Source of the DNA: Thermococcus thioreducens
GTDB taxonomy: Archaea > Methanobacteriota_B > Thermococci > Thermococcales > Thermococcaceae
NCBI RefSeq assembly: GCF_002214545.1
Contig: NZ_CP015105.1
Span: forward strand, 1,364,001-1,428,000
DNA: 64,000 nucleotides
Direction of reading: 5' to 3'
Shown: in pieces, positions 17,172-20,767 of the stretch
How the letters are laid out: each line of letters begins with the position of its first letter
Numbering within the stretch: position 1 is the first letter of the stretch
Notes under the pieces: model-generated
Databases searched by the model: none
Told to the model about the DNA's origin: nothing
The model's input: the letters and a program-made list of their open reading frames with translations, nothing else
Position numbers and translations under genes: made by a program

Positions 17172-17528
17172 ATGCCGATGGGAATGGGGCCGGGCAGGGG
17201 CCGCGGAAGGGGCAGAAGAAGGAAGATGAGGATGATCGGATTCGTGCCAGAGGTTAGACATTTCTATCCCGCGCTGCCGCCCGTTGGACAACCCAAACCG
17301 CCGATTTTCATGACCTACGAGGAGTTCGAAGCGCTCAGACTGGTAGACCATGAAGGCCTAACGCAGGAAGAGGCAGGGAAGAGGATGGGCGTCTCCAGGG
17401 GTACGGTGTGGAGGGCGCTGAGCTCAGCTAGAAAAAAGGTTGCTCAGATGCTGGTTGAGGGAAGGGAGCTTATCATCCTGCCGCAGGGCAACGAGGTTCC
17501 CAAAGGGATGACTGAAGAAAAGCCGTGA
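17172..17528 (+). CDS. DUF134-family predicted DNA-binding protein
   Basis: A 118-residue DUF134 protein. Residues 1-20 are a low-complexity basic head (MPMGMGPGRGRGRGRRRK). RMIGFVPEVRHFYPAL and FMTYEEFEALRLVDHEGLTQ are the family core, followed by a sigma-like helix-turn-helix EEAGKRMGVSRGTVWRALSSA. The family is often found beside NifX-type and MinD-type genes; here it lies 5 kb away but shares their Gly/Arg-rich composition, so it is a candidate regulator of that cluster (inference). TATAAAG at 17138-17144 is about 30 bases before the ATG and there is no ribosome site, so the mRNA is probably leaderless. Confidence 0.85.
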   Translation: MPMGMGPGRGRGRGRRRKMRMIGFVPEVRHFYPALPPVGQPKPPIFMTYEEFEALRLVDHEGLTQEEAGKRMGVSRGTVWRALSSARKKVAQMLVEGRELIILPQGNEVPKGMTEEKP

Positions 17529-17603
17529 GAAGGCCTACTGGCCGGATTAAACTCTTTTACTGGATTTCCTGGCGATTAGAGTCCCCTCAATGCCTTATTG
17601 TTT

Positions 17604-17617
17604 TTAGGCTTTCCTAA
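17604..17617. promoter_or_regulatory. Orphan TTAGGnnnnCCTAA box
   Basis: TTAGGCTTTCCTAA repeats the 5-4-5 palindrome found before the MinD/NifX genes. It lies 76 bases after the DUF134 stop, facing the gene-free AT-rich segment, with no gene start nearby. It may be the leftover promoter of a lost metal-uptake gene. Confidence 0.5.
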
Positions 17618-18235
17618 TTTCCGTGTCAGATTTTATCTCTCAAATTTTTGGGTGAATTATAACCATGTGAAAAAGTAATTTATATGAGAACTTACAGAAT
17701 TGAAATAATAACGCTTATAAAAAGTTAGAATAAAAGTATTTTGATTAATTGTATATTTTCGAAATATAATGGAAAAATAAAAATACTATTTAAAACATTA
17801 AAAAATCTGAAAAATCTACTACTGTAAAAAATAAATTCTGGTAAAAGAGTATACATCCAGACATCAAGCCAATGGATTAAACCCCAGTTTGGGGAACATC
17901 ACTGAAAGCCAGGATAGTCACTATAAGTCCAGACAACACAAACCAAAATTTGGTTACGAATAAAGGTGGTTCCTCTGAGCGGGCGTGAGAGCGCTACAGA
18001 CACTATGAATGGCCCAAGGAAGCCCAGAAACAGAGGGGCACGGGCACGAGTCTGCCACGGTTACCTGTCTTGAATTGCCCTATAACAGAGCTGATCCGCA
18101 AGAGTTTATGCCCCACTATACAAAGGGCCCTAACAACTGCAGGGATCTTTTACTCACTTAAATGTCTGTTGCCTTACTTTTGACAATCATAGTCCTGTGG
18201 GATTCCCCTTAAAATGACCAATCCTGTACTTCAGA

Positions 18236-18263
18236 ATTGGATATAATGTACCTTATATCCAAA
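18236..18263 (+). other. dif site for XerA-type chromosome dimer resolution
   Basis: Perfect arms TTGGATATAA (18237-18246) and TTATATCCAA (18253-18262) flank a 6-base centre TGTACC, giving a 28-bp site with its outer bases. As I remember it, the dif site characterised with XerA in Pyrococcus abyssi is also 28 bp, with arms TTGGATATAA and TTATATCTAA, so this differs mainly in the centre. Tyrosine recombinases of the Xer family join sister chromosomes here to resolve dimers. The site sits in the middle of a gene-free segment, which fits a structural chromosome locus near the terminus. No xer gene is in the window. Confidence 0.88.
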
Positions 18264-18943
18264 ATTAAAGTACAATCATGTTCATAGAAAGGACAACGGA
18301 TGCACACGTTCCACCAGTTCCCAGCGCTTGGAGTCTACCCCTCCGCACATCCCTAAATCGACACTAACCAGCGGATGAAGGTTTCCACTATAGTGGGGCA
18401 ACTCAGGGAACTATAAAGTTCCGCCGTTATTGACCCCTCCTGCTGCTTTATGGAGATTCCTTGATGAAACCAGTAAGCCCGTGCCAGGATTTCGGCACCA
18501 TATATACCATCTTTAATTGTAACCGAATTTTGTTCCATGAAAGCCCGATCTCAGAATAAACTTTTAGCACTCTGGGATTAATTAACAACGTCCCCCTTAA
18601 GGGTTCATGGGAAAGAATGTACTGCAGTATAGGTAGAGTCGTACCCTTCATCGAGAAGCGCCATCCCCTTAGCATAGACACTCCTGTACACCTATTCTCA
18701 TTTGTACTACCCCGGATGGTCAAAAATCACCGAAATTTAATTTTCTAAATTGTAAGTTATAACCGATAAATAATGATAATAAAAGACAAACATTTAAGAT
18801 ACCAAAAATAAAACGATAAAAATGAGACATAATTATAATTAAATTAAAAAGTAAAAATTTAGCAAAAAATTTGAGAGTCATTTGGCATCATCAGGCCAAA
18901 AATTCAAAAAGAGTATTGTGGCGTTAAATCAAATAAAAAGGGA

Positions 18944-20299
18944 TTAAAGCCCTTCTTTTCGCTCTTTCTCCTTTATATAGGCAATTACGTTATCGACTAT
19001 CTGCGGTGCCATGCCTATGTAGTTCTCCGGCTTCAGGCTCTCAAAGTCTTCCTCGCTGAGGAACTTTCTGACCTCCTCATTCTCCTTCGCGATCTCCATA
19101 AGGTCCCTCTTCTCGTAGAACGCCCCCATCGCCAGTCTTCTCACCAATTCATGCGCCTCCTGTCTTCCCATGCCTCTCTCAGTAAGCTTGAGCATGAGTG
19201 GCTCGGCCATTATGAGGTTGTGAGTCATGTGGAGGTTCCTCTTAATGTTCTCCGGGAAGAACTCCAGCCCGGAGAGGACCTTCTTCATGCTCTTGAGCAT
19301 CTCGTCAAGCAGGACAAAGCTCTCAGGAAGGATAACGCGCTCGACAGAGGAGTTCGTCAGATCCCTCTCGTGCCAGAGGGGATTGTTGAGCAGTGCAGGA
19401 ATGACGTTGGAGTAGAGAACCCTCGCCAGGCCGCTCACCTTTTCGCTCAGTATGGGGTTCCTCTTGTGGGGCATTGTTGAAGAGCCCACTTGCCTCTTCC
19501 CAAAGGGCTCGCTGATTTCAAGTATCTCCGTCCTCTGAAGGTTCCTTATCTCCAGGGCAATCTTGTCAAGGGTCGAGGCGATGAGAGCCAAAACCATCAT
19601 AAGCTCCGCATAGACATCGCGCTGGATTATCTGGCTGCTTATTCTGGCAGGCCTGAGACCGAGATCCTCCATCACAAGGCGCTGAATTTCAAGGCCCTTA
19701 TCTCCAAAGCTCGCCATCGTCCCGACGGCGCCGCTCATCTGACCGACCAAAATTCTTTTCTCCAGCTCTTCTATCCTGTCTATATGCCTCTGTATCTCAT
19801 CGAGCCATAGCGCAAACTTCATGCCGTAGGTCGTTGGAACCGCGTGCTGACCGTGGGTCCTTCCTATGCAGACGGTGTACTTGTGCTCTCCGGCAAGGTT
19901 CTTGAGGATCGAGCGTATCTCCCTGAGGTCGTTCTTCACAATCTCCAAGCTCTCCTTTATGAGGAGGGCATTGGCAGTGTCTATTATATCATTGGAAGTA
20001 GCGCCGAGGTGAACGTATTTTCCATGATCGCCGCAGACCTCGCTAAGGGCCTTAACGACGGCCATTATGTCGTGGTGTATCTCGGCCTCAATTTCTTTAA
20101 CCCTCTCAAGCCTTACCCACTTTGTGTTGGCCCTCTCCGAGATAACCCGTGCACTCTCCTCGGGTATATTCCCGAGCTTCGCATGAGCCCTCGCCAACGC
20201 TGCCTCAACGTCGAGGAGCTTCTGGAGCTTGTTCTCCTCGTCCCAAATTCTTCTCATCTCCTCGCTACCGTATCTGTAATCAATGGGATGAACGGCCAT
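18944..20299 (-). CDS. purB: Adenylosuccinate lyase
   Basis: A 451-residue fumarase/aspartase-superfamily lyase. It catalyses two steps of purine synthesis, cleaving SAICAR and adenylosuccinate with release of fumarate. HPIDYRYGSEEMRRIWDEE is the start; GRTHGQHAVPTTYGMK carries the catalytic His; HLGATSNDIIDTA is conserved region 1; GSSTMPHKRNPILSEK is the mobile signature loop with the catalytic Ser. ATG 20299 is chosen because GGTGATAAA precedes it; the frame stays open for another 52 codons upstream but with unrelated sequence. PurA, its partner for AMP synthesis, lies at 3.3-4.3 kb. Confidence 0.97.
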   Translation of the reverse strand: MAVHPIDYRYGSEEMRRIWDEENKLQKLLDVEAALARAHAKLGNIPEESARVISERANTKWVRLERVKEIEAEIHHDIMAVVKALSEVCGDHGKYVHLGATSNDIIDTANALLIKESLEIVKNDLREIRSILKNLAGEHKYTVCIGRTHGQHAVPTTYGMKFALWLDEIQRHIDRIEELEKRILVGQMSGAVGTMASFGDKGLEIQRLVMEDLGLRPARISSQIIQRDVYAELMMVLALIASTLDKIALEIRNLQRTEILEISEPFGKRQVGSSTMPHKRNPILSEKVSGLARVLYSNVIPALLNNPLWHERDLTNSSVERVILPESFVLLDEMLKSMKKVLSGLEFFPENIKRNLHMTHNLIMAEPLMLKLTERGMGRQEAHELVRRLAMGAFYEKRDLMEIAKENEEVRKFLSEEDFESLKPENYIGMAPQIVDNVIAYIKEKERKEGL

Positions 20300-20491
20300 T
20301 TTATCACCAGATATATGGCAATTTAAAGCCATTAAAACCTTTCGCTTAACATGAATTTGCAGGAGCATGGATGAACACTTGATTAATTCATTAAAGCCAC
20401 AGGATTGTCCAATAAAGCAGGGAAAATACCGAAAAGTATTTAACCAAAATCCCACGACAGGTTAACGACAAAATTCCCGGAGGTGCCAAAG

Positions 20492-20767
20492 ATGGCAGAG
20501 GAGCATGTCGTCTACATCGGAAAGAAGCCGGTTATGAACTACGTCCTCGCCGTGATAACCCAGTTCAACGAGGGCGCTAAGGAGGTCAGCGTCAAGGCTC
20601 GCGGTAGGGCCATCAGCAGGGCCGTTGACGTCGCCGAGATCGTCAGGAATAGGTTCCTCCCAGAGGTCAGAGTCAAGGAGATCAGGATCGGTACCGAGGA
20701 GCTCCCGACTGCCGACGGCAGGACCGCCAACACCTCGACCATCGAGATTATCCTTGAGAAGCCGTGA
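20492..20767 (+). CDS. albA: Alba DNA/RNA-binding chromatin protein
   Basis: A 91-residue Alba protein. [20 protein letters not shown] holds the conserved lysines and the GKKPVMNY motif of the nucleic-acid-binding loop. [19 protein letters not shown] is the helix 2 signature, and [19 protein letters not shown] is the flexible beta-hairpin that reaches into the minor groove. Alba dimers coat DNA and structured RNA in archaea. ATG 20492 is 6 bases after GGAGGTG; an in-frame ATG at 20483 has no proper spacing. The promoter has a TATA-like AGTATTTAACC at about 20434. It is divergent from purB. Confidence 0.97.

Follow-up and report, generated by a model that had tools for sequence, protein, structure and literature searches.

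The genome of Thermococcus thioreducens carries, in the gene-free DNA between two convergent genes, a 28-bp inverted repeat with the appearance of a dif site. This raises two questions: is the repeat indeed the chromosomal target of the Xer recombinase, and is the gene-free DNA around it simply the space between two gene ends or a setting conserved for the sake of the site? Here, we address these questions in the window, i.e., the whole 64,000-nucleotide stretch that was analyzed (G000:1364001-1428000), and across 94 genomes of the Thermococcaceae.

The dif site and a XerA orthologue

The 28-mer ATTGGATATAATGTACCTTATATCCAAA lies on the plus strand at positions 18236..18263 of the window and has the layout expected of a dif site, namely two 11-bp inverted arms and a 6-bp spacer. 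The initial annotation had described perfect arms around TGTACC, and these are present where it had placed them: TTGGATATAA (18237-18246) and TTATATCCAA (18253-18262) are exact reverse complements on either side of the spacer (18247-18252), which includes the palindromic GTAC. The outermost eleventh pair (18236/18263) is A/A and remains unpaired, such that 10 of the 11 arm pairs are perfect. With up to three mismatches allowed, no second copy was found in the window, and dinucleotide shuffles likewise returned zero; the same threshold applied to the 2,065,932-bp (2.07 Mb) single-contig genome, with a backwards control of zero, recovered neither a better match nor any further one. An RNA gene was considered as an alternative reading of the locus and rejected, as no Rfam family and no tRNA were found within the window.

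A degenerate pattern search recovered a dif-type site in 88 of the 94 Thermococcaceae genomes (72/74 of the good-quality ones). A site of the Pyrococcus abyssi type, TTGGATATAATCGGCCTTATATCTAA (G004, 1,765,118 bp; L005), differs from that of the window at four of 28 positions, of which three belong to the spacer, bearing out the earlier remark that the two diverge mainly in the central bases. This family-wide conservation agrees with the published description (PMC2958812): there, Cortez et al. 2010 predicted dif sites in the Thermococcales that have flanking inverted repeats as well as conserved AT-rich flanks of ~23 bp, and P. abyssi XerA bound and recombined such sites in vitro. The same account offers further parallels, in that the published and the present sites are both 28 bp long with near-identical 11-bp arms and a 6-bp spacer, are single-copy, have a XerA that is encoded away from the site and lie 120-142 degrees from oriC, with short AT-rich flanks that are conserved in the family yet weak in the window; the spacer is TGTACC in the window and TCGGCC in the published form (PMC2958812).

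The recombinase that such a site presupposes is also present. A single tyrosine recombinase bearing a PF00589 domain is encoded in the genome, a XerA orthologue of 280 aa (L032) with P. abyssi XerA as its best PDB match (4A8E, E = 1e-116) and a GLR / K / HxxR / H / Y signature as judged by eye. Its gene (G000:1509199-1509696) does not adjoin the site, being located 127 kb from it. Hence, we regard it as close to certain that the 28-mer is the chromosomal Xer recombination site dif, a member of the kind known from Cortez 2010. Farther afield, a dif-like 28-mer, TTTAAATATAATGTTCATTATATTAAAA, occurs in a distant archaeon of the same domain but of another family (L033 1501-1528, genome G116).

A composite domain centered on dif

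The site is flanked by a gene for a DUF134 (PF02001) protein on the plus strand (17172..17528) and a purB-like gene for adenylosuccinate lyase on the minus strand (18944..20455), both transcribed toward dif; this convergent arrangement is retained in 32 loci. The gene for the nucleoid protein Alba (20483-20767) follows just past purB, within 2.5 kb of dif. The segment between the two genes (17529-18943) is the sole stretch of the window of at least 600 bp that lacks an ORF of at least 100 aa, as had been proposed from the gene-free setting of the site. Three further ORF-free gaps of at least 900 bp are found in the sampled 60% of the genome (L114 12852-14160, L121 9670-11220 and L161 17461-18629); the gene-free state is therefore not unique in the genome.

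What sets these 1.4 kb apart is that they constitute a conserved composite domain, a structure that the initial annotation had overlooked. In an alignment of 41 loci, conservation is concentrated in dif and its inner flanks, in a mid box, CAAAATTTGGTTACAATTAAAGGTGGT, and in an outer box, TCTCTCAAATTTTTGAGTGAATTTTTACTTTAT, with poorly conserved stretches in between, and both boxes are inverted between the two sides of dif. The mid and outer boxes form a module of ~300-360 bp, while the spacing from the module to dif varies freely. In the window, pattern and consensus searches place the left copy of the mid box, CAAAATTTGGTTACGAATAAAGGTGGT, at 17944..17970 on the plus strand and its inverted right copy, CAAAATTCGGTTACAATTAAAGATGGT, at 18506..18532 on the minus strand. 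The left outer box (17636..17668, plus strand) matches 27 of 33 consensus positions, with its T-rich strand facing dif; the inverted right copy (18846..18878, minus strand) also matches 27/33 and has two mismatches by pattern, and it was missed by an HMM trained on left copies (E <= 0.01). The ~23-bp AT-rich inner flanks are clear family-wide and weak in the window's species: the left one (18211..18235, plus strand) is conserved across the family but here degenerate and no better than background, and the right one (18264..18287, plus strand), which corresponds to the flanking repeat of Cortez 2010, can be recognized and agrees with the consensus at 17 of 23 positions, a score not above the shuffle maximum.

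The second component of the domain is a pair of AT-rich tracts, one at 17626..17876, with a minimum of 17% G+C in 150 bp, and one at 18701..18901, with a minimum of 17-18% over the same span. In the 1.244-Mb sample from which the genome background statistics were drawn (60% of the genome), the G+C content drops to 22% or below over 150 bp at just two places, the ones flanking dif. Tracts of no more than 25% G+C within 1.3 kb on both sides are seen at 44 of the 50 distinct non-Pyrococcus dif loci; among the exceptions, some have the tracts farther out (L069, L070, L078) and some lie at a contig edge (L060, L072). Several contigs end at the AT tracts of the domain (G047 C68 and C70, G054 C37), which hints at difficulties in the assembly of this region.

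The boxes are nearly confined to dif. The mid box pattern was found in 31/94 genomes and the outer box in 44/94, with zero matches in the backwards controls, and by their coordinates the matches across the 94 genomes lie almost exclusively at dif; those apparent strays that were fetched turned out to be located at dif as well, or else next to an AT tract where a contig ends. The HMM built from left outer boxes alone recovered 29 right copies, all of them inverted, with none the wrong way round and none in the reversed control, and all 67 outer-box copies (67/67) face inward. The orientation of the mid box is looser, 12 of 60 copies facing the opposite way. The outer box also has predictive value: in G042 and G070, two genomes from which the dif search had recovered no site, the pair encloses a divergent but clear dif, and hence it can serve as a finder of dif where the 28-mer has diverged. 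Two other readings of the symmetry were rejected, namely that the boxes are transposon terminal repeats, which would be dispersed rather than confined to a single locus, and that the two halves are mutual duplicates, their similarity being limited to the short conserved boxes.

Other genera retain the domain next to other neighbors (L071, L168), and Pyrococcus lacks the outer boxes. Since the Pyrococcus dif nonetheless works in vitro, recombination as such does not require the domain. The published description, in the part drawn on here, deals with the ~23-bp flanks and not with AT tracts, outer or mid boxes, dif-linked genes or swaps of half-domains (PMC2958812). The domain looks like a variant setting so far described only in part: the site itself is real and an ordinary dif, and it is the setting that is unusual and reproducible.

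Putative transcription terminators and the AT tracts

T runs downstream of genes are expected of archaeal terminators. One explanation of the domain would be an ordinary dif in an ordinary convergent intergenic region: the AT-rich, T-run-bearing flanks would terminate the transcription of DUF134 and purB, and the symmetry would arise from nothing more than the convergence of these genes. Several observations fit this. On the inward strand 3' of the convergent genes, runs of five or more Ts outnumber those of five or more As by 242 to 26, and the spacing between stop codon and outer box is constant (~86 bp for purB and ~127 bp for DUF134). Further, where a divergent pyruvate kinase gene takes the place of DUF134 (G019, G020, G021, G030, G042, G056 and G068; L020, L021, L022, L031, L063, L056 and L073), the outer box on that side is weaker, with a mean score of 21.3 as against 25.3 of 33 (p = 6e-4). 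The outer boxes may hence be mere terminators. As an account of the whole domain, this explanation is nevertheless unlikely: neither box occurs at other gene ends in the 94 genomes, the mid box and the tracts lie hundreds of bp beyond any terminator, no equally AT-rich tract exists elsewhere in the sampled 60% of the genome, the domain is retained across genera despite the change of neighbors noted above, and the AT tracts are still present where the neighboring gene is divergent, their minimum G+C averaging 0.13 there. As the AT tract stays while the outer box weakens next to a divergent neighbor, we therefore separate two functions, that of a terminator-like outer part and that of an AT tract whose role is independent.

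The DUF134 side also carries a TTAGG-N4-CCTAA palindrome 3' of the gene (17602-17621 in the window), which recurs on the DUF134 side of several relatives. It resembles the operators of DtxR-like metal regulators.

Half-domain swaps and dif-restricted orphan genes

Comparison of the loci indicates that dif is also a point at which neighborhoods are rejoined. In 46 loci oriented by purB, the dif spacer points toward this gene in 24 and away from it in 22, such that the orientation of dif relative to its neighbors flips in evolution. Among 32 pairs of loci with similarity reaching the edge of dif, 15 are similar on both sides and 17 on one side only, with nothing opposite; in none of the 32 does similarity end part-way across, and the join is at dif in 17/17 discordant pairs, at a breakpoint resolution limited by the conserved dif to ~42 bp on either side. 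All four combinations of left and right half types are seen (L001, L049, L051, L077). The pairs of loci are not independent, and by eye at least five swap events can be counted. These half-domain swaps between species fit a history of recombination at dif; other routes, for instance a homologous transfer in which one half was lost, may also explain them. The mosaic halves joined at dif can be read as a natural record and suggest that the site is recombined in nature.

Two orphan genes are restricted to the same place. Gene A (~250 aa), either intact or as a relic, is found in 10 of the 94 Thermococcaceae genomes and only beside dif (L164, L165, L167, L168), its start lying within tens of bp of dif where the 5' end is preserved; given this closeness, dif could overlap with its promoter. 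Gene B (~105-140 aa) is located inside the dif domain in 23/94 genomes (L176-L198), with dif on the same fetched stretch in 22 of the 23 and the remaining one cut by a contig end. Decayed copies of both are common, while the window has neither gene, and a six-frame profile search of its core found no relic of either. No known family was found for A or B, gene A being without a Pfam, NCBIfam, PADLOC or PHROG family; in the genome collection, it matches only a T. paralvinellae MAG, and a single-sequence structure prediction was unusable (mean pLDDT 36). We rejected a nuclease reading of gene A, for which a weak D...E.K pattern and sub-threshold Pfam matches were the sole support, and likewise an origin in a mobile element, as it has no plasmid, phage or viral match.

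The confinement of A and B to the vicinity of dif, where they decay, together with the exchange of half-domains with the break at dif, recalls an integrative element that entered at dif via XerA, of which the domain would be the remnant, with the two genes as cargo and the outer boxes as ends. We consider this quite improbable, given the absence of a second dif and of a recombinase gene in the domain, the lack of relatives of gene A in plasmid, phage and viral collections, the conservation of the domain across genera, invariably in single copy, and the fact that the window has no detectable relic of A or B. Elements of the IMEX type are recognized by two flanking dif-like sites or by a free form in mobile elements, and the locus has one dif only.

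Position on the chromosome

The initial annotation had placed the site at a probable chromosome terminus, and this is borne out for a broad region. With the Orc1/Cdc6 gene (cdc6, 25.4-26.5 kb) as a proxy for oriC, dif at 1,382.2 kb (~1.38 Mb) is 124 degrees from the origin, which falls within the published dif-oriC separation of 120-142 degrees in the Thermococcales (PMC2958812). In the 60% genome sample, the cumulative GTTG/TGGT skews start to climb near the origin and end in a broad plateau, whose maxima fall at ~1.10-1.19 Mb; dif lies on the declining side, 210-280 kb past the summit, and the GC skew is uninformative on the terminus. Hence, "terminus region" is a fair label for dif, supported only broadly, while "terminus point" goes beyond the evidence. 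That the inverted modules are polar replication-fork barriers trapping forks at dif is highly improbable: their strictly inverted orientation and the broad terminus region would suit this, but the word-skew summit lies 210-280 kb away, the T-rich directionality suits transcription termination better, and we know of no Tus-like protein in the Thermococcales.

A proposed insulated dif

The reading that we consider probable is that of an active dif at the center of a conserved domain that insulates it from transcription and loop extrusion, likely by means of terminator-like boxes and tracts coated by TrmBL2. XerA bound to both arms would exchange strands across TGTACC and thereby convert chromosome dimers to monomers. 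The inward-facing, T-run-rich sequences with the outer box are predicted to stop transcription from both convergent genes, and the two AT-rich tracts would exclude genes from the domain. The most likely coat of these tracts is TrmBL2; its orthologue in P. furiosus assembles cooperatively into stiff filaments (PMC4877046). The window's genome codes for TrmBL2 (264 aa; PDB 5BPD, E = 1e-142), and such a coat may be a barrier to SMC loop extruders on either side of dif. In T. kodakarensis, SMC is reportedly stalled by TrmBL2 at dif, at a boundary dependent on this protein (Yamaura et al. 2025). A genome of the size of that of T. kodakarensis (G024, 2,088,737 bp; L025) has the same architecture, its tracts having 18% and 17% G+C and its outer boxes lying at -858 and +813. 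The inverted conserved boxes are sequence features with a putative link to TrmBL2.

Roadblocks of this kind could unite sister dif sites and hold them in register, covering part of the job of bacterial FtsK. The archaeal system shares with bacterial XerCD/dif, with its FtsK and KOPS, the logic of dimer resolution and the layout of the site, but it uses one recombinase and has insulating tracts beside the site rather than genome-wide KOPS. A more elaborate version, which we put forward as a tentative and somewhat doubtful possibility, is a compound orientation-dependent insulator, in which inverted boxes dedicated to dif and AT tracts position SMC/TrmBL2 instead of FtsK, with a gene pair of its own and exchange of half-domains between species at dif.

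FtsK is absent from archaea (PMC2958812), and the dif domain thus bears on how archaea without it control Xer recombination and locate the terminus. As the domain is compact, has separable parts (inner flanks, mid boxes, AT tracts and outer boxes) and belongs to a genetically tractable genus, its proposed role is directly testable.
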